From Cladocopium goreaui (Eukaryota; Sar; Dinophyceae; Suessiales; Symbiodiniaceae), in assembly GCA_947184155.2 (NCBI GenBank), contig CAMXCT020003398.1, positions 1 through 64,000 on the forward strand: DNA of 64,000 nt. Reading direction: 5' to 3'. Position numbers and translations under genes: made by a program. Below, one piece after another: positions 7,011 through 62,179 of the stretch. The notes below the pieces were generated by a model that was given only the letters and a program-made list of their open reading frames with translations, had not been told where the DNA came from and did not search any database. Every line of letters starts with the position of its first letter. The stretch's first letter is position 1.

Positions 7011-8590
7011 ACATGTTGTATTCAAATTTGCAACCAAGCAAAACAGTTTTTTTACACACAAGAAACCTTTACAAACAAAGCAGCTTGTACACAAGAGAAA
7101 CCTTTCAAACAAACCAGCTCTTACACACAAGAAACCTTTCAAACAAGGCAGTTTTTACACACAGCAAGCCTTTCAAACAAAGCAGTTTTCAAACACAACA
7201 AACCTTCAAACAAAGCCGTTTTTGGGTTCATACGCCTTTCAAACAAAGCAGCATTCACACACCAACAGGCTTTGAAATAACGCAGTTTTTACACACAAGA
7301 AACCTTTCAAACAAAGCAGTTTGTGGACACACAAGAAGCCTTTCAAACAAAACAAATTTTACACACAACACACCTTTTAAACAAACCAGCTGTTACGCAC
7401 AGAAGTTTCTTCGACAAAGTAGTTTTGACACAAAAACCTTTCAAACAAAGCACATTTTCCACACAACATGTTTTTCAAACAAAGCAGTTTGTGGACACAC
7501 AAGAAGCCTTTCAAACAAAACAAATTTAAACACAAGAAACCTCGCAAACAAGGCAGTTTTTGCACACAACACCCCTTTAAACAAAGCAGTTTCTACACAC
7601 AAAATCTTTTCAAACAAAGTAACTTTCATACACAAAAAACCTTTCAAACAGAGCAACAACAAGCCTTTCAAACAAAGCAGCTTTTACAACTCCAAACAAA
7701 GCAACTTTTACACACAAGAAGCCTTTCAAACAAAGCAACTTGTACACAAGAGAAATCCTTCAAACAAAGCAGTTGGTAAACACAAGAAACCTTTCAAACA
7801 AAGCAATTTGTGGACACACAAGAAACCTCTCAAACAAAGCAGCTTGTACACACAACACGCCTTTTAAACAAAGCAGCTTTTACACACAGAAGCCTCTCAA
7901 ACAAAGAAGCTTTTACATACAAAAAACCCTTTCAAACAAAGCAGGTTGTGGACACACAAGAAGCCTTTCAAACAAAGCAGCTTTTCCACACAAGAAACCT
8001 TTCAAACAAAGCAGCTTTTACACACAAGAAACCTCTCAAACAAAGTAGCTTTCACATACTGCACAATGTACAAAAAACCTTTCAAACAAAGCAGTTCGTG
8101 GACACTGAAGAAGCCTTTCAAACAAACAAATTTTACAAACAACACACCTTTTAAACAAAGCAGCTTTTACACACAGAAGCCTCTTAAACGAAGCAGTTTC
8201 TACACACAGAAGCCTCTCAAACAAACTAGTTTTAACACCCAAAGACCTTTCAAACAAAGCAGCTTTTCCACACTTCCAGCTTTTCAAACAAAGCAGAGTT
8301 TACACACAAGAAGCCTTTCAAACAAAGCTGCTTTTACACACAAGAAACCTTTCAAACAAAGTAGCCCTCACAAACAAGAAACCTTTCAAGCGAAGCAGCG
8401 CTTCCACACAAAAAGCCTTTCAATCAAACCAGCTTTTACACACAAGAAGCCTTTCAAACAAGCAGCTTTTGCAAACAGAGAACCTTTCAAACAGAGCAGT
8501 TTTTACTCACAACAAGCCTTTTAACCAGCTGTCACACACAACAAGCCTCTCAAACAAAGCAGCTTTTACACACAGAAAACTTTCAAAGAG
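7011..8590. repeat. 34-bp minisatellite, about 45 degenerate units
   Basis: The unit is roughly AAACAAAGCAG followed by CTTTTACACACAAGAAACCTTTC, 34 bp. It is repeated with substitutions and small indels for about 1.6 kb. Because 34 is not a multiple of 3 and the unit lacks stops, all three forward frames stay open for long stretches. The resulting 100-280 codon reading frames are artefacts of the repeat. It starts about 150 bp beyond the LTR of element 1. Confidence 0.93.
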
Positions 8591-9044: not shown

Positions 9045-9610
9045 TTGAGCTCTCCCCAAGCTATTATCCACGGCTTGAATGTTGTCTTGCGCCTTCCCAG
9101 CGAAGCTCTCCGCAGGCTATTTGCAGGGTTTCGTGTCCGTCCAGCATGCTGTATCGCATCTCCCGGCGAAGCTTTCCGCAAGCTATTTGCACGGTTTCGT
9201 GCCCGTCCAGCATGCTGTATCGCATCTTCCAGCGAAGCTCTCCGCAAACTATTTCGTGTCCGTCCAGCATGCTGTATCGCTCCCTCCAAGCGAAGCTCCC
9301 CCCAAGCTATTTCCACAGTTTCGTGTCCGTCCAACATGCTGTATCGCTCCCTCCCGGCGAAGCTTTCCGCAAGCTATTTGCACGGTTTCGTGCCCGTCCA
9401 GCATGCTGTATCGCTCCTTCCCGGCGAAGCTTTCCGCAAGCTATTTCCACGGTTTGGTGTCCGTCCAGCATGCTCTATCGCTTCCTCCCAGCGAAGCTTT
9501 CCGCAGGCTATTTCCACGGTTTGGTGTCCGTCCAGCATGCTGTATCGCATCTTCCAGCGAAGCTTTCCGCAAGCTATTTCCACGGTTTCGTGTCCGTCCA
9601 GCATGCTGTA
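9045..9610. repeat. 67-bp satellite, left part (about 8 units)
   Basis: The unit contains CAGCATGCTGTATCGC, CCAGCGAAGCTTTCCGCAAG and CTATTTCCACGGTTTCGTGT; its length is 67 bp. Units differ by a few substitutions. The array ends abruptly at ...CAGCATGCTGTA, where the DNA transposon starts, and resumes with TATCGCTCCC at 17,869. The unit is open in three forward frames, so long reading frames here are artefacts. Confidence 0.93.
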
Positions 9611-9644
9611 CCCAGAGAGCGCTTTATTGGAAAGAATCAATAAA
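9611..9644 (+). repeat. Left terminal inverted repeat of the transposon
   Basis: 34 bp, identical to the reverse complement of 17,835-17,868. It starts CCCAGAGAGC. Similarity stops at base 35 (G versus A). Confidence 0.97.
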
Positions 9645-9780
9645 GTTATTGATTTTCATCAGAGTTATTGAAATGAGGTTTTTATTGGTATAAACCAATA
9701 ATCTTATTGGTTTGTATTTCAATAAAGTTATTGGTTTGTACCAATAAGGTTTGCAGGCTGCAACCAATAAAGCTTATTGG
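9622..9780. repeat. Left subterminal TTATTGG/CCAATAA repeats
   Basis: About eight copies of the 7-mer TTATTGG or its complement lie in 160 bp, several as facing pairs (for example ACCAATAATCTTATTGGT near 9,693). Clustered subterminal motifs in both orientations are usual transposase-binding sites in DNA transposons; binding here is inferred. Confidence 0.85.
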
Positions 9781-9912
9781 TTGCTTCTGGCAACATGCAT
9801 GCCATCCACATGTAAGTTTCAGCCAGCTATATATCCAGCAGCTCTGTTGTGGCTCCAACGGTGTGGTGTGTTTACACCTTTTTTGAGATTGGCTTGCAAA
9901 GGCCATTGCAAA

Positions 9913-9945
9913 GCCCTGCAGAAGGGCAAGCCTTGCATAAGGGTA
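9913..9945 (+). repeat. Hairpin cluster a (upstream of gene 1)
   Basis: GCCCTGCAGAAGGGC, then a weaker GCCTTGCATAAGGGT copy. It lies 21 nt before the gene 1 ATG. Confidence 0.75.
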
Positions 9946-9965
9946 GCCTGGACCTAGCAAAAGCC

Positions 9966-10229
9966 ATGGATAGAGTTGAAATGGATGTGCTGGACATGGC
10001 CCTGGCAAGGCCTCCCAGCAATGCAATGGAGGAAATCCAAGCCTACTGGCAGTACCTGGAGTGCACCACGCCGTACTGCCATGGATGGCTTTGGAGGAGA
10101 CACCTGAATAACCCCACCTGGGGCATCAGGTGCTATGTGTGCAGAAAAGCCTGGAGAGAAACCTTCCAGCAAGATGGGTGGCAGCTCTGGGACCCTAGGC
10201 ACAAAAGGAAGTATGTGTATGGAACTTAA
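9966..10229 (+). CDS. Transposon gene 1: 87-aa zinc-ribbon protein
   Basis: ATG at 9,966 is the first start after hairpin cluster a. The frame extends upstream through the hairpins but starts there only with the ATG at 9,849, so the downstream start is preferred. The protein has a hydrophilic N-terminus and two cysteine pairs: CTTPYC (C-x4-C), then about 16 residues later CYVC (C-x2-C), with tryptophans between. This looks like one zinc ribbon of a small nucleic-acid or protein-binding module. The stop at 10,227 is followed 13 nt later by hairpin cluster b. I recognise no named family. An accessory role in transposition or RNA handling is conjecture. Confidence 0.7.
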   Translation: MDRVEMDVLDMALARPPSNAMEEIQAYWQYLECTTPYCHGWLWRRHLNNPTWGIRCYVCRKAWRETFQQDGWQLWDPRHKRKYVYGT

Positions 10230-10242
10230 AGAGCACCTGGAG

Positions 10243-10306
10243 TCCCTGAAAAAAGGTTGCCCTGAAAAAGGGATGCCCTGAAAAAGGGCTGCCTTGAAAA
10301 AAGGCT
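10243..10306 (+). repeat. Hairpin cluster b (downstream of gene 1)
   Basis: Four tandem stem-loops of the form CCCTGAAAAAGGG / GCCTTGAAAAAAGGC, 17-20 nt apart, begin 13 nt after the gene 1 stop. Confidence 0.9.
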
Positions 10307-10497
10307 GGTGCAACAAAGAGAAACTGACAATGAAGCAGGTGAAAAAAATGGGGATGGGGAGACTGGGTTGTTTCTGTTGCTGTTACAGCAGCATGTTCTT
10401 GTGCTGCACACTGCATGTTCCACCATGTCACACCTCTAGCTGCTGCAGCTTTTTTGGATCAAAATTGAAGGCACTTAGATATTGTCGCCTGGTCAAA

Positions 10498-10575
10498 GCC
10501 TTGCAAGAAGGCATTATACATCTAGCCTTGAAAAAAGGCAGAGCCTTGAAGAAAGGCAGGGCCTTGTGTAAGGGC
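10498..10575 (+). repeat. Hairpin cluster c (upstream of gene 2)
   Basis: GCCTTGCAAGAAGGC, GCCTTGAAAAAAGGC, GCCTTGAAGAAAGGC and GGCCTTGTGTAAGGGCC. The last ends 1 nt before the gene 2 ATG at 10,577. Confidence 0.9.
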
Positions 10576-10576
10576 C

Positions 10577-11634
10577 ATGGTGCTCATGAAGGCAGTCAAG
10601 AGAGGAGCAGGGGCTGGCAACAAAAACCACATCAAAAGGAATGCTTTTCCAGATGTCAGCCAAGACAAATTGGATGAGGAAGTGGACTGCTACATCAGAT
10701 CCATGGGAGTGGCTGCCAGCTTTGACTTGCTGGAATACAAACACTCCAAGGTCAGCAGGCAGAACAGCCAAAGGCCTTGTTCAAACTGCAGAAACTGGTG
10801 GAAGCAGTGCTGAAAGTCAGCCCTTCTGCCCAAATAAAATATGGGCAGCTCAGGCAAAGCTTGCAGATAGCTTGCAAGAAGTTTGGGATGGAACTTCTTT
10901 CTGCACACTGGCAAGTGGAAAATGCCCATTTGCCTGGCAAGGCTGCAGATGCCTTGGGTGTCATGCTGAAGCACTGGAGAAGGGTGACAGCTTCTCAGAC
11001 TGCCTGGGACAAATTTGGCAGAAAGCTTGAAGAAAGTCATTTCAAGCAGCTGCAAAGGCTTTACAAAATGATGCAGCATGGGGGCCAAACTGGGAAAGCC
11101 AAAAGGGAGCTTACAGCCCACATCAGTGATGTGACAGTGGATTCCACAGGCATGCCTGCTATGTTGAAAGCAAGCAGTGAGGAAGGTGAGGAAAACATTT
11201 CAGGCTTTGACAGCAAGGGCAGCCTGATGGATAGCCCACCTCCTGTTGCAAAAGGTCTTTGGAGGGAGATGGCAGGCAAACCTTTGAAGAAAAAACCTGC
11301 TACAAAAGCAAAAGAAACTGCTGGCCCATGCAAAAAACCAGCCAGCAAGCACAAGTCAAAGAAAGCAGGGTTGGCAGGTGGACCTGCAACCAAAATCCAC
11401 ACAGCTTCCTTGAGTGTGGGGGGTGGCAAGTCTCAAGCATACATACAACATGTTCCAGGGCCAGGAAATGAAAAGAGGCTGATTGTGGCTTGCACAATCA
11501 AGCAGGCAGCAGCTTTGAAGGTCTCACACAAGGCCTTAATACAAGAATTACTACCCAGATACAAAGTCCCTGGTACCACAAAGGGGGACATCCTCAAAGC
11601 CAGGGATGATCTTTTCCAAAAATATGAAAGGTGA
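10577..11634 (+). CDS. Transposon gene 2: lysine-rich protein, one frame break
   Basis: ATG at 10,577 directly follows hairpin cluster c. The first frame (KRNAFPDVSQDKLDEEVDCY...) is coherent to about 10,757, where coding moves to the frame read from about 10,760 (QAEQPKALFKLQKLVEAVLK...) and runs to TGA at 11,632. The break is 2 nt net and is an indel or an unrecognised intron. The joined product would be about 350 residues: an N-terminal alpha-helical part, a basic middle (KPLKKKPATKAKE) and a C-terminal SAP/winged-helix-like segment (IQELLPRYKVPGTTKGDILKARD; weak resemblance only). It could bind DNA or RNA. Hairpin cluster d starts 11 nt after the stop. No family is recognised. Confidence 0.7.
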
Positions 11635-11644
11635 AGTTAGCATT

Positions 11645-11697
11645 TGCCTTTCAAAAAGGCTTAGCCCTGCAAAAGGGCCACCCTTGCAAAAGGGCAG
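11645..11697 (+). repeat. Hairpin cluster d (downstream of gene 2)
   Basis: GCCTTTCAAAAAGGC, GCCCTGCAAAAGGGC and CCCTTGCAAAAGGG start 11 nt after the gene 2 stop. Confidence 0.92.
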
Positions 11698-11963
11698 CCA
11701 TGTTTTTGAAACATATATGGCCCTCCAAAGTGGGAAGGCAGCTCAGCTGGCAGCAGAGGCTACATGGCTGCTTGGGAAAAAAAGGTTGGGCAGCAGGCAG
11801 AGCAGCAGGAAATGAAGACATGGCATGTGTCATGAGAGTGGCAACTCAACAGCATGTGTCTGAAACCTTTTTGCATGCCTGCAGCTTGTTTTTGCTCAAG
11901 CATTCAACTGCCTGGCATTTTGTCGCCATTTTTCAACTGTTGCAAGCTTTGTGTCAAAAGGAA

Positions 11964-12014
11964 GGCCTTGAAAAAGGCAAAGCCTTGGAAAAAGGCCAGG
12001 CCCTGCAAACAGGC
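11964..12014 (+). repeat. Hairpin cluster e (upstream of gene 3)
   Basis: GGCCTTGAAAAAGGC, GCCTTGGAAAAAGGC and GGCCCTGCAAACAGGC end 10 nt before the gene 3 ATG at 12,024. The 266 bp between clusters d and e hold no supported gene. Confidence 0.9.
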
Positions 12015-12023
12015 ATAACAAAG

Positions 12024-12960
12024 ATGTCTGCCCAGGATGGGGGTGATGCACAACCTGACTGGAGTGCTGATGGAGACACAGATGTCAAAGAACCCAAGCA
12101 GGAAGAAGTCAAAAAGAAATCACCTCCCAGAGAGGCCCAGCCCAATGAAAAGAGCAACCCACCAAAGCAGTCACCCAGCCCTGCCAGGATAAACCCACCT
12201 GCCAGGAAGAACCCACCTGAGGAGAAGCCTGTGAAAGGTGGCTGGTCAAGGTCTTCTTGGCAGCCTGAGGATTCCTGGGAGGATGGCTGGGATGACAGCT
12301 ACTGGGGTCATGGCCAAAAAAGTTGGCCAAGATGGGAAGATGACCAATGGTCTTCCCATGGCAGAAAGGGGTGGGATGATGATGATTGGGGAAACCACCC
12401 CAAAAAGGGTGAGAGTCAAACCAGTGGCTCCTCCAAGGAAAGGAAAAAACTGGAGCAGCTGAGGCAGCAGTGCCCCCAAACTGATGATGAGGTGCTGAAG
12501 CTAGCTGCTATGGGAGGCAGCAGGTTCAAAAGGCTCCAAAAAAGACAGGAAGAAAGAGAAGAAAAAAGAGAGCAAGCTGAAAAGATGAAGAACCTGGAGA
12601 GCCAAGTGAGCCAGCTGCAGGAATGCAACCTGCAATGGATGCAATACCACCAGCAGCAGCAGTACCAACAAGCTGCATGGCAAGCAGCTTCTGCCTGGCC
12701 AACCCAAGCCTATGTGCCAATGGCTGCAGGGCCTATGCAAGGCCCAACACTGTTTTCTACTCATGCAGTGCTGTTGTTTTGGCATCATGTTATACCAAAT
12801 GTGTATCCAATTTCTGCTGCCACTTTGCCTTCTTAATTTCTTCTTTGCAGGCCAGCCCAGTGGAAAAAGCAGGAAGCATGAGCAGGCTGCCAGCCCTGCC
12901 ACTGCAAGCTCCAGTGCAGATGCTGGACCTCCAACCACAGGCTTGATTTTTTTTTTTTGA
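12024..12960 (+). CDS. Transposon gene 3: W/D-rich coiled-coil protein, one intron
   Basis: ATG at 12,024 follows hairpin cluster e by 10 nt. Exon 1 runs to 12,741 and exon 2 covers 12,851-12,960. The intron 12,742-12,850 has a GC donor (CAAG|GCCC) and an AG acceptor (TTTGCAG|GCCA); the repeated GGCC at both ends is a dinoflagellate-like trait. The protein has an acidic and lysine/proline-rich N-terminus, a tryptophan/aspartate/glycine-rich middle (SWEDGWDDSYWGHG and similar), a charged coiled coil (about EERKEQAEKMKNLESQ) and a glutamine-rich stretch. This is a low-complexity profile reminiscent of RNA-binding or scaffold proteins. It has no enzyme motif and belongs to no family I recognise. 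Confidence 0.72.
12742..12850 (+). other. GC-AG intron in gene 3
   Basis: Splicing at CAAG|GCCC and TTTGCAG|GCCA rescues an otherwise drifting reading frame (QGQPSGKSRKHEQ continues the protein). It is 109 bp long. Confidence 0.65.
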
Positions 12961-13178
12961 TACCTGCTGATGTTTTTTTGGCAGAGCAGTGTTGCCACCT
13001 GGGTTGTTGATTTTGGCCTGTGGCAGGTATGGCCAAAAGAGACTCCCTGAGGCCAAAAGCAGCCAGCAGGCCTGAGAAGGCCACCTATGCAGAAGTCCTG
13101 CAAAGAAATGATGAGAATAGAAAAGGTGAAGGGAAAAAAAGAAGAGGGGATAGACCCCCATGAAATACTCAGAGGATA

Positions 13179-13248
13179 GCCTTGCAAAAAGGCACACAGC
13201 CCTGAAAAAGGGCCAAGCCCTGAAAAAGGGCAAATCCCTGAAAAACGG
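13179..13248 (+). repeat. Hairpin cluster f (downstream of gene 3)
   Basis: GCCTTGCAAAAAGGC, GCCCTGAAAAAGGGC, GCCCTGAAAAAGGGC and TCCCTGAAAAACGGA. It begins about 220 nt after the gene 3 stop, the largest spacing of the set. Confidence 0.9.
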
Positions 13249-13883
13249 AAAAAAATTGAGCACTGCAATGGGCAGTAAGACTGGAGCCCTGCATGCTGTC
13301 CAATGGTGTTGGAAAAAATGGGAGGGGTGGAGCCTGGAGCTCGGAGGTTTTAGTTTCCAGTTGATGTGTTGTTCAACCTCAATTTCAACTAGTTGGGTTC
13401 TGGTACCTCAGTTTCAAATGTTCTTCAACCTCAATTTTGTTCATTGGAAATTTTAATTTCTGATATGGTTTTCAAATTTGTGTCAAGCCACCAAAAAAAG
13501 GCAAATGCCTGAGTTCCAAATGATGTTGTGTCTCCAACCCACCACATTTTTCTGATGGGCAATGTTTGGGGCCAAAAAAAATCAACATTGAAATATATTT
13601 TTGGCAGTAAAAAAATCCCCAAATGGGAAAATCTTTTTCTGGGCTGAAAAATTGGCACCCATCATATTCCATCATATGATGTCATATGATGGGGGGGGCC
13701 CATCATATGATGTGGGGGGCCATCATATGATGGCAAAAACCCATCATATGATGGGTGGGCCCATCATATTGCATCATATGATGCCATATGATGGGTCTCC
13801 ATTTTTTGGACTTTTTGGAAAATGCTGCAGCCATTTCAAAATCTCAAACAATTTTTGCTCGCCCTGTGAAAAGGCAAAGGTTG
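13249..13883. other. Intergenic spacer between genes 3 and 4
   Basis: No coding sequence is supported. The first 400 bp repeat TTCAACCTCAATTT-like pieces. The second part holds five CATCATATGATG palindromes. It is the longest spacer in the transposon and a candidate promoter or origin-like region. Confidence 0.5.
13670..13783. repeat. Five perfect CATCATATGATG palindromes
   Basis: The 12-bp palindrome occurs at 13,670, 13,701, 13,721, 13,742 and 13,772. Half-copies (CATCATATT, TCATATGATG) and G/C runs lie between. Spacing is 20-31 bp, so the sites could sit on similar helix faces. This suggests a dimeric protein-binding array; the function is unknown. Confidence 0.9.
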
Positions 13884-14009
13884 GGCCTTGCAAAGGGCAC
13901 CTCCAATGGGAAAGGCAAAGGCAATGAAAGTCGAAAAAAAATATGTGAAAAAGCAGGGCCCTGGAAAAGGGCAAGGCCCTGGAAAAGGGCAAAGCCCTGA
14001 GAAAGGGCC
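13884..14009 (+). repeat. Hairpin cluster g (start of gene 4)
   Basis: One copy, GGCCTTGCAAAGGGC, lies at 13,884. Three tandem copies, GGCCCTGGAAAAGGGC, GGCCCTGGAAAAGGGC and GCCCTGAGAAAGGGC, lie at 13,957-14,009. Unlike the other clusters, part of this one is readable as the N-terminus of the downstream protein (GPGKGQGPGKGQ). Confidence 0.88.
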
Positions 14010-15231
14010 ACCAAAGCCCAAAGGCATTTTGAAAAGGCCATCCACCTTAGCCTTGCCCAATAGAAATGACCCTGGACTCTCCCTTGAGGAGAAAATGGAA
14101 CAGTTTGCCAAAAAAACCAATGGGAACACCCAAGAGTTTTTGGATAGCCTCAGTGCCCCTCAGAGAGAGGCTCTCTGGGGAAGGTTTGCCAGGGCAAGGA
14201 AGTCCCTCAAAGACCAGAACTTGAACTCCCTTTGGGACAAGCGCTGCAAAGGAGAGGGATCAGAGCAGCACAAGAAGCAGCTGCTGTCCATCTACCTCAA
14301 GTCCAGAGGGGATCTGAAGAAGGGCAACCAGTATGCCAAAGAGTTGGTGGAGATCAGTGAGACCACTGGTATCTTGGTTGCATTTGGATGTGGTCTTCAG
14401 CCTGTGGCCTTCAGTCTGTGGCCTTCTCCCTTCTTGCCACAGCTGAGGCAGCAAGGAGACATCAGAATGGGTGCCATTCAATGTCATCCTTCAAAGATAT
14501 GGCCTCAAGGAGGCAATGCGCAGAGCACCTTTGGCTGCATGTTGTGAAGTCACTAGGCACAGCTATTGTCACTAAAGTGCCACACAACTTGTTGCAGTCT
14601 GTGGTTACAGTCTCAGGTGCAGAGAGGATCAATCCAATGCAGGGGGGATCCAAAGGACATGGAAGAGTGGCAATTTGCCTTGGAGAAAGAAGTGGCCTAC
14701 AAAGATGTGAAGAACCACCATGCTGTGGCTTTTGAAGCCTCTCAGAAGATGGAAGCCCTGGAGTGGATGAAAGCTAGGCAGCATGGCTCCATGAATACTG
14801 GAGATGGGTGCCAAGGTGAAGATGCTTTGTCTGATGTGCTGCCTGACAAAGCCAAAAGCAAAAAGAGGGAACCACTGGCCCTGATGGACAAAATGGATGA
14901 AGAAAGTGAGCAAGAGCCAGAGAAGACCCATAGCCCCAGCAAAAAGGCAACTGCACTTCACAAGGCAGTGGAAGATGCAGAGGTGCTGAGTGACCTTGGC
15001 AGAAGCAAGAGCAAGGACCAGGCAGCCAAGAGGGTTCAGAAAATGATCAAACTGATCAAAGATGTGAAGGGTACGGCTGGCAATGCAAGCCAGAAGGCAT
15101 TGCAGCCTTCCCTGTCAGAGCTAGAAAAAGTTTCCAGGAAAGGAAACAAGCTGAGTCTGGAGACCTGCAAGGACACCCTCTTGGATGCAGCCTTGGCACT
15201 GAAAAAAGTCCAGAAAGGCCTCCAGAAGTGA
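13906..15231 (+). CDS. Transposon gene 4: three-exon basic protein
   Basis: Best model: exon 1 13,906-14,368, exon 2 14,448-14,517, exon 3 14,643-15,231. Intron 1 is GT-AG (79 bp); intron 2 has a GC donor (CAAT|GCGC) with CAATGC repeated before the acceptor. Spliced, the frame reads SLEEKMEQF...LWGRFARARKS...KQLLSIYLKS, then WVPFNVILQRYG, then DPKDMEEWQFALEKE, followed by a long charged helical tail with KAKSKKR and a C-terminal basic coiled coil. A second ATG is at 13,924. Translation of the hairpins gives a GPGKGQ repeat, so the true start may differ. From memory, a similar helical domain is common in dinoflagellate gene models; I cannot name it. No catalytic motif is seen. Confidence 0.68.
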
Positions 15232-15249
15232 AGGCACTTGCAAGCATGT

Positions 15250-15300
15250 GCCTTGAGAAAAGGCAATGCCCTGAGAAAGGGCAGCCCCTGAAAAAGGGTT
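15250..15300 (+). repeat. Hairpin cluster h (downstream of gene 4)
   Basis: GCCTTGAGAAAAGGC, GCCCTGAGAAAGGGC and CCCCTGAAAAAGGGT start 18 nt after the gene 4 stop. The 180 bp to cluster i hold no gene. Confidence 0.92.
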
Positions 15301-15480
15301 TTGTCTCTTGGGGCTTCTGTGGCACCTTTGGCCATTCTCATGAGCTGGAAAAAGTGTAGCCCTGTGTGGTGGAAGAAGGCTGCCCCCAGGTTCCCTAAAC
15401 CAGCACCATGCTTCATTTTCTTAAAGCTGCATGCACACTGAGGAAGTGTTTTGGTTCCAGGTAGGACTAATATTTTGTTG

Positions 15481-15546
15481 CCTCTGCACAAGAGGAGCCC
15501 TGGAAAAGGGCAGCCCTGAAAAAAGGGCAGCCCTGCAAAAGGGCAG
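15481..15546 (+). repeat. Hairpin cluster i (upstream of gene 5)
   Basis: CCTCTGCACAAGAGG, GCCCTGGAAAAGGGC, GCCCTGAAAAAAGGGC and GCCCTGCAAAAGGGC end 13 nt before the gene 5 ATG at 15,560. Confidence 0.92.
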
Positions 15547-15559
15547 CAATGGATCAGAA

Positions 15560-17535
15560 ATGGAAAAGAAAAAATGGCAAGCAGCAAGCACCAACACCTC
15601 TTCAGAGAAGGAGCTTACCCCATTGGCTTCCTGTCTTCTGGAAAATTTTGCAAATGGGATGAGCGTATCTTGGCAGCACATCTCACCACATGTGCATGAC
15701 CATGCTTTCTGTTGCAATTTCCTTTTCAGCAGCTGCCAATCTGTTTCAGCCAAGGGACCATCCATCCAGGCTTTAGCGATGGCAGCTACTCAAAGTGGTG
15801 CCACAGGAGAGGACCTTCAGGAAATTTCAGCCCTGGGCAATTTTGGGAAAAATGCTCCTCACATAGCTTCCCAAATGGAAAGGAAATTTTGCCAGTCACC
15901 TGACATAGACCTTCCAAGCCCTTACTTGCTGGAGTGCCCAGTGAAGGTTGTCACCTCTGATGGAATTGGCACCAGCCTGAAAAGAATTGGGATGTTTCTG
16001 CCACATGAGTGGTTTCACTGGATGTCATCCTGCCCACACATTTCTGGGCTGGACACTTTGGAATCATTTTGGGAGTCACACTCTGCTGAAGATCCCCAAC
16101 TTCTTGGCAATCCTGTGAAGGAACCTGGGGTTGCATTTCTTTTTGTTCTTTTCATCTGTTTGTGAGCTGCTTTGGATTTGCTTCCACTGTGATGCTTCTC
16201 CTTCATGCTGCTATCTCAGGATATCAGAGAAAGGTTCTTACCCCTTGGCCTACATGGAGATGCAGGGGCCTTTCAGAAGAATGATCCATCCATGTGATCT
16301 CCATGAGGTCACTCCTGTCTAGCCAAAATGTTGCAACATCACAGTTGCTCTTGGTGGCCTTGCCAAAGGGATGCATCAGCAAAGGCCCTGGTGATCCCAG
16401 CAGTGATACCATGCACCATGTGTGGTCAGTGATTAAGTGGAGCTTTGAAGCTGTGTACTTCAACAAATTTCCAGAAGCTGATCACAGAGGAATTGCATGG
16501 CCTCAGAACAGCTGGAGGTCAGAGATGGCTGGGCAACCTTTGAACTCTGATGGCCATTCAGGTCTTCTTTTTGCAATCCAAGGTGATGCTGAATACCTTC
16601 AGAATGAGTTTGGCTTGACCCTGGCCTCCCATGAAAACATGTGTTTTCATTGTGGGGCAAATAAATCGACTTTCCCCTACAATGACTTCAGGCCTGGAGC
16701 TGCTTGGAGAGCCACCATGGTGCCTCATGCTGGGACATCCCCCACTGAGCACCTGGTGTCACAAATCACAGGTGTGACTGGAGATACCTTTAAATTCGAC
16801 ATTCTCCACACCCTTGAAGAAGGATTGACAGCCCACTGCCTTGCCAACTGTGCCTTTGACTGGGTTTTGAGATCTGACTGGCCTGGGACCCATGGTGTCA
16901 GGCTCAGAACACTCTTTGGGAAGATATTCACACTCTATACTGAGTTGGGCATTGAGAGTGAGAACAGGATCAGGAGATTTCCTATGTCAGCCTTTTGCCG
17001 CCCCGAATTCAAATGGGACAGCTTTCCATCCTTGAGTGGAATCAAAGCCAAGCAGTGCAGGTGGCTAGTTCCTGTGTTTCTGCAGATTTGTGAAGAATAC
17101 AAGGATCCAGAAGATTCCTATTCTCAGCACAGATTTGACTGCTTGAAACATTTGAATGATGTCTATGACACCATGGACAGAGCTGGTCTGCACCCTAGCA
17201 CCAATGATGCAAAAGCCTTCAGGAAGAGCCTGGACAATTGCCTTCTGCACTACAGCAGACTGTCAGTGTTGAGCATGAAAGCAGGAGTGCTCATGTGGAA
17301 TACAATTCCAAAGATGCATTGGGCCCAGCACCTTGGCTGGTTCAACCCAAAGTATTACTCTTGCTATCAAGGTGAAACAATGGTGGGGCACATGTCTGCC
17401 CTGGGGCATGCATGCCTGAATGGAACTCCAGCACATCAGGTGCCTCTCAAAGTTTGCTGGAGATTCAGGCTGGCATTTCACCTCAGGAACCAAGGTGCAG
17501 AGTTTGCCTTTGCAGCTTCTGACAGTGATGGCTAA
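15560..17535 (+). CDS. Transposon gene 5: candidate DDE-type transposase
   Basis: ATG at 15,560 follows cluster i. Exon 1 runs to about 15,660; exon 2 is 15,730-16,120; a 99-bp intron 16,121-16,219 has a GA donor (AAG|GAAC) and CAG|GATA acceptor; the last part runs to TAA at 17,533. A 1-2 nt frame change is needed near 16,290, either an indel or a tiny intron. Candidate catalytic acidic residues: LHGDAGAF (16,259), FKFDILHTLEEG (16,798) and YQGETMVG (17,374). A C-x2-C with a nearby histidine (HENMCFHCG, about 16,635) may bind zinc. Tryptophan-rich helices surround these. The order D...D...E over about 370 residues suits an RNase-H-fold transposase, but the assignment is inferred from position in a TIR element. 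Cluster j begins 2 nt after the stop. Confidence 0.72.
16121..16219 (+). other. GA-AG intron in gene 5
   Basis: AAG|GAACCT to CTCAG|GATATC. AGGA is repeated at both boundaries. Removing it joins GNPVK to DIRERFLPLGLHGD in one frame. GA donors are a known dinoflagellate peculiarity. Confidence 0.7.
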
Positions 17536-17536
17536 A

Positions 17537-17588
17537 GCCTTGCAAAAGGCATGTGCCCTGCAAAAGGGCTTAGCCCTGCAAAAGGGCT
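17537..17588 (+). repeat. Hairpin cluster j (downstream of gene 5)
   Basis: AGCCTTGCAAAAGGC, GCCCTGCAAAAGGGC and GCCCTGCAAAAGGGC begin 2 nt after the gene 5 stop codon. Confidence 0.94.
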
Positions 17589-17695
17589 TTCAACTCTTAG
17601 CTGCACCTCTATCTAAACTTTTGCAAGCTGAGCCTAAAAGAAGTGGTGCCTGTGTTCCAACCCAGTGAGAAAGTGGATCCAGAAATCAAACAGGA

Positions 17696-17857
17696 TTTAT
17701 TGGTAAAACCAATAAAGACCCTTATTGGTTGGTCCTCAAATGTTATTGGTTAGTTCAATAAAGGGGTTCAAGCCACAAACCAATAAGATCAGCTGTTTTA
17801 TTGGTTTCTTCCCACATTATCGAAAGCAGCGTTTTTTATTGATTCTTTCCAATAAAG
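17696..17857. repeat. Right subterminal TTATTGG/CCAATAA repeats
   Basis: About seven copies of the 7-mer in both orientations lie in 160 bp, mirroring the left end. Confidence 0.85.
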
Positions 17858-17868
17858 CGCTCTCTGGG
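17835..17868 (-). repeat. Right terminal inverted repeat of the transposon
   Basis: Reverse complement of 9,611-9,644 with no mismatch in 34 bp. It ends CTCTCTGGG, followed by the TA target duplicate. Confidence 0.97.
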
Positions 17869-18232
17869 TATCGCTCCCTCCCAGCGAAGCTCTCCGCAAG
17901 CTATTTGCACGCTTTCATGTCCGTCCAGCATGCTGTATCGCTTCCTCCCAGCGAAGCTTTCCCCAAGCTATTTCCACGGTTTCGTGTCCGTCCAGCATGT
18001 TGTATCGCTCCCTCCCAGCGAAGCTTTCCGCAAGCTATTTCCACGTTTCGTGTCCGTCCAGCATGCTGTATCGCTTCCTCCCAGCGAAGCTTTCCCCAAG
18101 CTATTTCCACGGTTTCGTGTCCGTCCAGCATGTTGTATCGCTCCCTCCCAGCGAAGCTTTCCGCAAGCTATTTCCACGTTTCGTGTCCGTCCAGCATGCT
18201 GTATCGCTTCCTCTCAGCGAAGCTCCGCAAGG
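17869..18232. repeat. 67-bp satellite, right part (about 5 units)
   Basis: It continues the array of 9,045-9,610 in the same orientation and phase, starting TATCGCTCCCTCCCAGCG. Alternate units carry CATGTTG instead of CATGCTG and lose one base in CCACGTTTCG, a pattern of two-unit (133-134 bp) higher-order repetition. Confidence 0.93.
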
Positions 18233-29751: not shown

Positions 29752-29862
29752 AATTTCTTGGGAACAATCAAAAACTTCATTTTGCCCAGGAAAGGCAAGA
29801 GCCTGATGGAGAAGCTGAAGCAAAAGAACCTTTGCGAGGAGGATGAGGATTTCCCTGGTTTT
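29752..29862 (+). CDS. Short exon ending at the microsatellite
   Basis: It reads NFLGTIKNFILPRKGKSLME KLKQKNLCEEDEDFP and then runs into the CTAT repeat, which is probably intronic. No continuation was found beyond the repeat. Confidence 0.5.
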
Positions 29863-29865
29863 CTT

Positions 29866-30172
29866 TCTTATCTATGTAATCTATGCAATCTATCTAATCT
29901 ATCTAATCTATCCTATCTATCTTTCCTTTCTATCCTATCTAATCTATCTAATCTATCTAATCTATCTATCTACCTAATCTATCTAATCTATCTAATCTAT
30001 CTAATCTATCCTATCTATCTTTCCTTTCTATCCTATCTATCTTTCCTTTCTATCCTATCTAATCTATCTAATCTATCTAATCTATCTATCTACCTAATCT
30101 ATCTAATCTATCTAATCTATCTAATCTATCCTATCTATCTTTCCTTTCTATCCTATCTATCCTATCTATCTT

Positions 30173-30212
<40 letters not shown>

Positions 30213-30496
30213 ATCTATCTAATCTATCTAATCTATCTAATCTATCTAATCTATCTAATCTATCTAATCTATCTAATCTAATCTATCTAATCTATCTAAT
30301 CTATCTAATCTATCCTATCTATCTTTCCTTTCTATCCTATCTAATCTATCTAATCTATCTATCTACCTAATCTATCTAATCTATCTAATCTATCTAATCT
30401 ATCTAATCTATCTAATCTATCTATTCTATCTAACCTATCTAATCTATCTAATCTATCTAATCTATCTAATCTATCTAATCTATCTAATCTATCTAT

Positions 30497-30548
<52 letters not shown>

Positions 30549-30827
30549 ATCTATCTAATCTATCTAATCTATCTAATCTATCTAATCTATCTAATCTATC
30601 TAATCTAATCTATCTAATCTATCTAATCTATCTAATCTATCCTATCTATCTTTCCTTTCTATCCTATCTAATCTATCTAATCTATCTATCTACCTAATCT
30701 ATCTAATCTATCTAATCTATCTAATCTATCTAATCTATCTAATCTATCCTATCTATCTTTTCCTTTCTATCCTATCTATCTTTCTATCTATCTATCTAAT
30801 CTATCCTATGTATTTTTCCTATCTTTC

Positions 30828-30878
<51 letters not shown>

Positions 30879-31557
30879 ATCTATCTAATCTATCTAATCT
30901 ATCTAATCTAATCTATCTCATCTATCTAATCTATCTAATCTATCCTATCTATCTATCTAATCTATCTAATCAATCTATCTAATCTATCTAATCTATCCTA
31001 TCTATCTTTCCTATCTTTCCTATCTATCTATCTGTCTATCTATCTATCTATCAATCTATCAATCTATCTATCTATCTATTTTTCTTTCTTATCTGTCTAA
31101 TCTATCTAATCTATCTATTCTATCTAATCTATCTAGTCTATCTAATCTATCTAATCTATCTATCTATCTATCTATCTATGTATCTATCTAATCTAATCTA
31201 ATCTAATCTAATCTAATCTAATCTAATCTAATCTAATCTAATCTAATCTAATCTAATCTATCTAACCTATCTAATCTTTTTTCCTATCTTTCCTTTCTAT
31301 CTATCTATCAATCAATCAATCAATCTTATCTATCTCATCTATCTTGTCTATCTATCTATCTATCTAATCTAACCTATTCTAATCTAATCTAATCTAACCT
31401 AATCTAACCTAATCTAATCTAATCTAGTCTAATTTAAGCTAATCTTTCTAATCTATCTAATCTATCTCTTCTTTCTCATCTATCTAATCTATCTAATCTA
31501 TCTAATGTATCTAATCTATCTAATCTATCTATCTATCTATCGATCAACCGATCGATC

Positions 31558-31588
<31 letters not shown>

Positions 31589-31603
31589 CTATCTATCTCT
31601 CTT

Positions 31604-31643
<40 letters not shown>

Positions 31644-31661
31644 ATCTATCTATCTATCTAT
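29866..31661. repeat. 1.8-kb CTAT/CTAAT microsatellite
   Basis: Mixed (ATCT)n and (ATCTATCTA)n tracts, with (AATCT)n at 31,190-31,260 and larger duplicated blocks such as the TTTCCTTTCTATCC block at 29,921, 30,020 and 30,050. It is stop-free in places and gives spurious leucine/isoleucine/serine reading frames. Confidence 0.97.
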
Positions 31662-61038: not shown

Positions 61039-62179
61039 ATCCCTTCCTCCTAATACTAAACCCCCCCCCCCTAATACAAAACACGGCAGGTAGTTTTTAG
61101 TATTAGGGGGGTATTTATTATTAGGGAACCAAATCGAAGTCATGTTAATTAATTAATTAAATTTCCTTATGTAACGCAATTAAAATATTGCCAAAAATGG
61201 CAGTTCGAAGCTTACCCCTAATACTAAACAAAAACCCTTAATACTAAAAACTATTTTTTCCGATCTCAAAATCAATTAAATTTCCTTATATAACGCAATT
61301 AAAATATTGCCAAAAATGGCAGTTCGAAGCTTACCCCTAATACTAAATTAAAACCCTTAATACTAAAAACTATTTTTTCCGATCTCAAAATCAATTAAAT
61401 TTCCTTTTATAACGCAATTAAAATATTGCCAAAAATGGCAGTTCGAAGCTTACCCCTAATACTAAATTAAAACCCTTAATACTAAAAACTATTTTTCCGA
61501 TCTCAAAATCAATTAAATTTCCTTATATAACGCAATTAAAATATTGCCAAAAATGGCAGTTCGAAGCTTACCCCTAATACTAAATTAAAACCCTTAATAC
61601 TAAAAACTATTTTTTCCGATCTCAAGATCAATTAAATTTCCTTATATAACGCAATTAAAATATTGCCAAAAATGGCAGTTCGAAGCTTACCCCTAATACT
61701 AAATTAAAACCCTTAATACTAAAAACTATTTTTTCCGATCCTAAAATCAATTAAATTTCCTTATATAACGCAATTAAAATATTGCCAAAAATGGCAGTTC
61801 GAAGCTTACCCCTAATACTAAATTAAAACCCTTAATACTAAAAACTATTTTTTACGATCTCAAAATCAATTAAATTTCCTTATATAACGCAATTAAAATA
61901 TTGCCAAAAATGGCAGTTAGAAGCTTACCCCTAATTGCTAGAGTAGCTAGGCAGCTTGGAGTGAGGGATTGGGACTAGGCCCCCCTAATACTAAACACCC
62001 CGGGGTGAACTAGTTTTTAGTATTAGGGGGGAGAACCCACAAATGGTAGGTTGATTTTTAAATTGTTTTTAAAAGGGGATCAATTAAAAGTCAAATTGGC
62101 CAAACTGAAATTTTCGGAAATTGGAGATGGATGCCTGTTTTTAGTATTAGGGGGACGTTTAGTATTAGGAGGAAGGGAT
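61039..62179. mobile_element. 1,141-bp TIR element carrying a 119-bp satellite
   Basis: Perfect 23-bp inverted termini starting ATCCCTTCCTCCTAATACT, with TA on both sides (61,037-38; 62,180-81). The interior is AT-rich, has no transposase and consists mostly of seven copies of a 119-bp unit. TAATACTAAA motifs in both orientations recur at termini, subtermini and in every unit. It looks like a MITE-type, non-autonomous element. Confidence 0.92.
61144..61935. repeat. 119-bp satellite, seven units, inside the TIR element
   Basis: CAGTTCGAAGCTTACCCCTA starts recur at 61,201, 61,320, 61,439, 61,557, 61,676, 61,795 and 61,914 (last as CAGTTAGAAGC). Units are nearly identical, implying recent amplification. 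Confidence 0.96.

Follow-up and report, generated by a model that had tools for sequence, protein, structure and literature searches.

Phage boxB-like hairpins bracket the genes of a dinoflagellate DNA transposon and may serve as RNA address tags

Why should every gene of a DNA transposon be bracketed by short hairpins? The question was raised by a 64,000-nt stretch of the dinoflagellate Cladocopium goreaui (contig CAMXCT020003398.1 of assembly GCA_947184155.2, positions 1 to 64,000; hereafter the window). Positions 9611-17868 of the window are an 8.26-kb DNA transposon with five plus-strand genes, and hairpin units were found at all 10 of its 10 gene boundaries. An earlier annotation made from the letters of the window alone (hereafter the sequence-only reading) had described this layout. 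Beyond it, we found that some of the hairpins are identical to the boxB hairpin of phage lambda, that they carry the signature of sense RNA and that their class differs between transposon lineages. We lean towards the interpretation that the hairpins are RNA address tags, by which the transcripts of the element would be self-addressed and bound by a protein of the element itself, with a logic like that of phage N protein and boxB.

The typical unit is GCCYU-GNRNA-ARGGC, a 5-bp stem with a G-N-R-N-A pentaloop, the loop sometimes being a GNRA tetraloop. With up to two mismatches allowed, GCCYTGNAAAARGGC had 36 matches in the window, all on the plus strand and all within the element, whereas 100 shuffles gave a mean of 2.92 and a largest value of 7. 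When units were defined by a 5-bp stem (G.U allowed, at least three G-C pairs) and a GNRA or GNRNA loop, the element had 27 in sense and one in antisense. A gene boundary was counted as occupied if at least one unit lay within 120 nt before the ATG or 150 nt after the stop. Of the 27 units, 23 fall in the 80-nt zones that adjoin the genes on their outer side and make up 9.7% of the element, a number reached by 57 of 20,000 rotations. The pentaloop was specifically enriched: Watson-Crick 5-bp stems with a 5-nt loop occurred 29 times versus 6.8 times in shuffles (largest 15, n = 100), while the other loop sizes from 3 to 9 nt gave 11-15 versus about 7, mostly inside the shuffle range.

These counts bear out the earlier description of five genes with hairpin clusters at ten edges, including the cluster that overlaps the start of gene 4, where three units fall within the beginning of the coding sequence and one precedes it. 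Some of the distances between clusters and genes had to be corrected. Gene 3, introns included, ends at 13163, which places its downstream cluster 15 nt after the stop and not about 220 nt, and the ATG of gene 5 that matches the relatives is 15549, 4 nt after the upstream cluster. The gene models were inferred from open reading frames (ORFs) and relatives, and are known here from DNA alone. The features of the element are as follows.

9609-9610, no strand: left copy of the target site duplication TA, from the flanking bases and the 2-bp duplications of a subfamily
9611-9644, plus: left terminal inverted repeat, 34 bp, exact inverse of 17835-17868
9891-9944, plus: hairpin cluster, 5′ side of gene 1
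9966-10229, plus: gene 1, small Cys-containing protein of 87 amino acids, zinc-finger-like by eye; ORF, relative at 795-1073 of locus L028
10243-10305, plus: hairpin cluster, 3′ side of gene 1; unit 10275-10289 is the lambda nutR boxB
10498-10575, plus: hairpin cluster, 5′ side of gene 2; separated from the ATG by 1 nt
10577-11634, plus: gene 2, frame broken in this copy, open (352 amino acids) in the copy on contig C935
11646-11695, plus: hairpin cluster, 3′ side of gene 2; 17 nt absent from the copy on contig C5831
11964-12014, plus: hairpin cluster, 5′ side of gene 3
12024-13163, plus: gene 3, inferred introns, Trp-rich with basic segments, candidate RNA binder; ORF, alignment and N-peptide comparison (not significant)
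13179-13231, plus: hairpin cluster, 3′ side of gene 3; units 13199 and 13217 are the lambda nutR boxB
13861-14008, plus: hairpin cluster overlapping the gene 4 start, in part within the coding sequence
13906-15231, plus: gene 4, inferred intron, three hairpin units inside the 5′ coding part; ORFs, relatives in L028-L030 by eye
15250-15299, plus: hairpin cluster, 3′ side of gene 4
15497-15544, plus: hairpin cluster, 5′ side of gene 5
15549-17535, plus: gene 5, inferred introns, RNase H-like transposase of RAG1-like fold; homologues, model of a 47% identical relative in L030
17537-17587, plus: hairpin cluster, 3′ side of gene 5; separated from the stop by 1 nt
17835-17868, minus: right terminal inverted repeat, 34 bp, exact inverse of 9611-9644
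17869-17870, no strand: right copy of the target site duplication TA, from the flanking bases

Three units of the window element (10275, 13199 and 13217) were identical to the lambda nutR boxB as read from NC_001416, with its 15 nt, 5-bp stem and GNRNA pentaloop. Two units of a 27-kb relative on contig C524 were identical to the lambda nutL boxB. Phage boxB loops are described as having a GNRA-like fold and binding the N peptide (PMC12550061). The transposon hairpins share with the nut sites of lambda and P22 the 15-nt length, the 5-bp stem, identical nutR and nutL units, the GNRNA loop, the placement in sense RNA and loop classes that are specific to lineages, the GACAA loop of P22 being present in other subfamilies. 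They differ in belonging to a eukaryotic nuclear transposon and in forming arrays at every gene end instead of single nut sites. The likeness is likely to be a convergence. The C524 relative (G000:C524:644213-671427, L013-L015) is bounded by terminal inverted repeats with TT on both sides and contains a gap of about 5 kb of N. It has boxB-like units and a homologue of gene 2 (about 83% DNA identity), and it is probably degraded, with nested insertions.

Matches to gene 5 within the 1.17-Gb assembly of the window number at least 102 and range from 98% down to 25% identity, the window's own match and pieces of split genes being counted. We chose one locus per identity level: L028 (60%), L029 (48%), L030 (47%), L032 (34%), L033 (32%), L034 (28%), L035 (29%) and L036 (26%). 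In the four elements with lambda-type hairpins, the numbers of sense and antisense units were 27/1, 38/0, 17/1 and 14/1, together 96/3. The same rule gave 0/0 in L032 and 6/1 in L033, two loci that have other units. Among sense stems of the four elements with four Watson-Crick pairs, the fifth pair was G.U in 55, A.C in 5 and another combination in 15; a looser first count, 84 G.U versus 24 A.C, is superseded by this one. As G.U pairs only in sense RNA, the strand bias together with the excess of G.U over A.C implied that pairing is kept in sense RNA.

The loops told the same strand. When they were left free in stems with 5-nt loops, GNRNA was found in 21/33, 32/44, 17/36 and 14/35 sense stems of the four elements, versus 0/40, 0/23, 0/26 and 1/19 antisense stems. 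Among 107 loosely defined pentaloop units, in which the first G and the last A were imposed, position 3 was a purine in 102, and positions 2 and 4 varied. When L022 was compared by eye with two copies that match it at 96.2% identity, its units differed from theirs by two changes at loop position 4 and one change from C-G to U.G, and one unit was a nucleotide shorter. RNA folding of five clusters showed that four were more stable than at least 199 of 200 shuffles (z from -3.3 to -4.3) and the fifth than 196 (z = -2.2), although in two of the five the predicted minimum paired adjacent units and did not form three single hairpins. We conclude that the hairpins are under RNA-level constraint on the sense strand.

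This constraint bears on the idea that the units act in DNA, as cruciforms or as transposase binding sites for transposition or replication. Their perfect palindromic arms could extrude in DNA, but a stem that tolerates G.U would contain a mismatch there, and the units lie at gene ends in a fixed orientation relative to the genes and not in subterminal positions. We consider a role in DNA highly improbable.

The placement of the hairpins was retained in the closer relatives. L028 has the five genes in the same order and units at 10 of 10 boundaries; 26 of its 38 units fall in the zones of 80 nt at the gene edges, which cover 9.4% of the element, and 38 of 20,000 rotations reached this number. 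In L029 and L030, genes 2-5 were found in order by eye, gene 1 being outside or at the edge of the DNA covered, and units adjoin those starts or stops that could be placed. In three of the four intergenic regions, clusters included, the identity between the window element and L028 is only 52-54% of aligned columns; the clusters have thus been kept as the DNA around them drifted. Conservation of single unit positions across the 60% copies is confounded by replaced upstream DNA and gap placement and was not used. The sequence-only reading had named hairpins scattered or absent in other copies as the observation that would speak against it. The edges are kept in L028 by count and in L029 and L030 by eye, and the pattern is less clean in L034-L036. 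Its suggestion that the clusters are the edges of exchangeable gene cassettes found no support, the gene order being the same by eye in the subfamilies read.

More distant relatives have other hairpins. The loops in L034, L035 and L036 are GACAA, GCCAA and similar, with sense and antisense counts of 54/6, 40/9 and 29/4; GACAA accounts for 14, 32 and 14 of the sense units, respectively, and GCCAA for 17 in L034. GACAA is the loop of the P22 nutL boxB GCGCTGACAAAGCGC, read from NC_002371, and the units of these three loci have it on a 5-bp stem as the P22 boxB does. Genome-wide, SCCTTGACAAAAGGS had 364 matches versus 78 for the reversed control. In L033 the unit is GGGCT-GGAN-AGCCC, and stems with a GGAN loop number 31 in sense and 0 in antisense; one run immediately precedes the open frame of gene 5 and others come after it. 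L032 has seven copies of a unit, in sense only, which can fold as GGGACCA-GCAA-UGGGCCC with an A.G mismatch. In a gene 5 tree of nine rows, L034-L036 grouped together (100/100), as did the four lambda-type elements (98/98), while L032 and L033 had long branches of unsure placement. The hairpin class thus follows the transposase tree as far as the tree is resolved, which is not expected from a shared host factor. As the class changes with the element, the cognate factor may be inferred to change with it and hence is probably encoded by the element.

The lineage-specific loops also bear on the possibility that structure alone matters, with partnerless hairpins guarding mRNA ends, blocking exonucleases or acting as insulators. 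The folding of the clusters described above would suit such a role. Structure alone would need neither GNR(N)A loops, with the purine at position 3 in 102 of 107 units, nor different loop classes in different lineages, and we regard it as improbable.

A further possibility is that the host reads the hairpins, as signals for 3′-end formation, spliced-leader trans-splicing or mRNA stability, and obtains separate mRNAs from five close-packed genes. The clusters do lie at both 5′ and 3′ gene ends. The spliced-leader 21-mer had 172 matches in the genome and none when read backwards, and some matches of genes 2 and 3 on contigs of 1364 and 1372 bases, known by length alone, would suit single-gene mRNAs. 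Against host signals, the subfamilies use different hairpins within one genome. In addition, three units are inside the coding sequence of gene 4 in the window, where processing would destroy the message, and in L034, L035 and L036 the open frames for gene 5 contain 9, 6 and 6 units (8, 6 and 6 after the first ATG), some of which may be due to chance given antisense backgrounds of 6, 9 and 4 per locus. Units inside coding sequence speak for binding sites or tags rather than for places of cleavage or trans-splicing. Coding linkers hold hairpin units as well (L028 3916-4002, the reverse complement of L030 1434-1508 and L029 671-709), with peptides such as GLGKGQ and GPGKGP. Reading by the host appears unlikely to us, though it is the strongest of the alternatives. 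Among the three roles offered by the sequence-only reading, sites for an element-encoded RNA-binding protein fit best, and processing or trans-splicing signals fit poorly because of the units in coding sequence.

The lambda-type pattern had 639 matches in the genome versus 28 for its reverse. Among the first 100 listed, 67 had a gene 5 match no more than 12 kb away, all 67 lying on the strand of that match, which argues against a host-wide signal. Lone matches occur, for example, at G000:C11:175345, C98:299608 and C445:2804; several contain the word GCCTTGAAGAAAGGC and may be coding repeats or old pieces of elements. It might be supposed that the units are selfish micro-palindromes that survive only where genes stay unbroken, like the repetitive hairpin-forming elements described in sponge mitochondrial DNA (PMC2800124). 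The arrays are nearly tandem, the number of units varies between copies (the 17-nt deletion in C5831) and the 33 listed matches away from listed gene 5 matches would agree with mobile palindromes. The sense orientation (96/3), departures towards G.U rather than A.C and the absence of GCCYTGNAAAARGGC matches from the 56 kb of the window outside the element do not, and this origin seems very improbable. That source describes short repeated hairpins in intergenic DNA, as here, but those invade organelle genomes, while the window units are transposon-borne, oriented and RNA-like. The introner elements of Amoebophrya (PMC7789003) are repeats of the dinoflagellate lineage whose inverted repeats may form hairpins, but they are introns, and the units studied here lie beside starts and stops or in transposon coding sequence.

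Under the address-tag interpretation, the sense RNA of each gene would bear boxB-like arrays beside its start and stop, with extra units tolerated in the coding sequence. The loops would be GNRA-like: GNRNA in the lineage of the window element, and GACAA or GCCAA (as in the P22 boxB), GCAA or GGAN in others. An element-encoded RNA-binding protein, most likely the basic, Trp-rich product of gene 3, would bind them, and the element's own mRNAs would be recognized and controlled together, through stability, export or translation. We infer the binding, the element as source of the protein, the part of gene 3 and the resulting effect. Alignment of gene 3, whose product is the candidate binder, showed basic segments that are conserved and a middle part rich in Trp. 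A comparison of 42 proteins, 15 of them gene 3 products, with the N peptides of lambda and P22 gave gene 3 products the eight highest scores.

Several observations weigh against the tag interpretation. The eight best N-like segments were reached or exceeded by fractions of 0.02 to 0.47 of composition shuffles (300 each, uncorrected for the 42 proteins), which is not convincing; they stem from different parts of gene 3, and in L033-L036 gene 3 was named by position and look. The similarity to N peptides is thus a lead and not a result. Two of the nine 60% copies miss a cluster (L019 upstream of gene 5, L026 after gene 4). In L034-L036 many units are within open frames, so that placement at edges is not universal, and L032 has only seven units, away from the starts that could be placed. 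The 33 listed genome matches not near a listed gene 5 match exceed the reversed-control expectation and are unexplained.

The element itself is a cut-and-paste DNA transposon with terminal inverted repeats (TIRs); the sequence-only reading had called it a DNA transposon and named a 34-bp TIR. The repeats are exact at both ends, with TA on each side. It is inserted in a 67-bp tandem repeat. The same genome contains two further full copies (98.9% and 99.4% identical) and one truncated copy. The flanks of the three full copies, the window element included, match at 97.8-99.8% identity over more than 500 bp to the left and to the right; the copies are therefore duplicates of one insertion and not independent evidence, and evidence of independent insertion was taken from the 60% subfamily. 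Both ends were found in six of its nine copies, with different flanks and matching 2-bp duplications (CA, TA, TG, TA, GT and AA). Of the others, C2035 had no left end where it was sought, the stretch of C396 passes the contig end and the left end of C504 was outside the search.

The transposase is encoded by gene 5. A 579-aa frame of L030, its relative, had 34 matches in public data, the top one being itself, and gave a model with a predicted local distance difference test (pLDDT) score of 86.7 and a strong match to the RAG1-like fold, on which a DDE transposase with an RNase H-like core could be recognized. The putative catalytic residues are D260, invariant in 35 aligned rows, and E337/E338, nearly invariant. 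The one sequence match to a solved structure was an unrelated protein (E = 2.4). The RAG1/Transib superfamily has 5-bp target site duplications. Compared with RAG1, ProtoRAG, Transib and P-element transposases, gene 5 has only about 10% identity and no Pfam match, and the window element has a 2-bp duplication, five genes and CCCAGAG termini; the duplications of the 60% subfamily are likewise 2 bp. CMC elements (CACTA/EnSpm, Mirage, Chapaev) have short duplications of 2-4 bp, multiple genes and CACTR termini. The window element resembles them in its 2-bp duplication and several genes, but ends in CCCAGAG instead of CACTR and has no Pfam match; the two may be distantly related. CACTA-type transposases were not among the fold-search rows shown for the L030 model, which excludes nothing.

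The break of gene 2 in the window is a 1-bp indel relative to the natural C935 copy. Genes 2 and 3 had 42 and 18 database matches, respectively. The predicted model of gene 2 (pLDDT 73) had no fold match at E 0.001, nor did gene 2 match a solved structure in sequence. A Pfam scan of nine proteins from genes 1-5 gave no domain label, with only weak matches below the cut-off. Distant subfamilies have an extra domain that resembles a HAD-type phosphatase by eye (VAVDWHN / VAIDWYN; reverse complement of L034 748-1851 and L035 1587-2216), not seen in the window element. Window positions 13647-13806, in the interval from gene 3 to gene 4, hold a cluster of CATCATATGATG palindromes with 47-nt inverted arms, 85% complementary, which differs from the other hairpins and is perhaps a nested small element. 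Long satellite arrays occur elsewhere in the window, at 29862-31661 (TCTATCTAA/TATC), 7050-8587 (34-bp unit) and 61151-61935 (119-bp unit, 97% matches).

A text search of the literature, mostly open papers, found no described transposon in which every gene is bracketed by specific RNA hairpin arrays. More tentatively, and with rather more doubt than belief, we suggest a clade of eukaryotic DNA transposons with a lock-and-key RNA address system, in which each lineage would have its own GNRA-like tag and a matching element peptide, the very loop types of lambda and P22 would have arisen anew on two occasions and the proteins would act on their own messages only. Should a protein of the element indeed read the tags, DNA transposons would possess a post-transcriptional layer of self-recognition, and eukaryotes would have an exact natural counterpart of phage boxB. 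Gene control in dinoflagellates is considered to act largely after transcription (PMC7789003). If the interpretation is true, the element would offer a natural RNA-protein pair to the study of this control.

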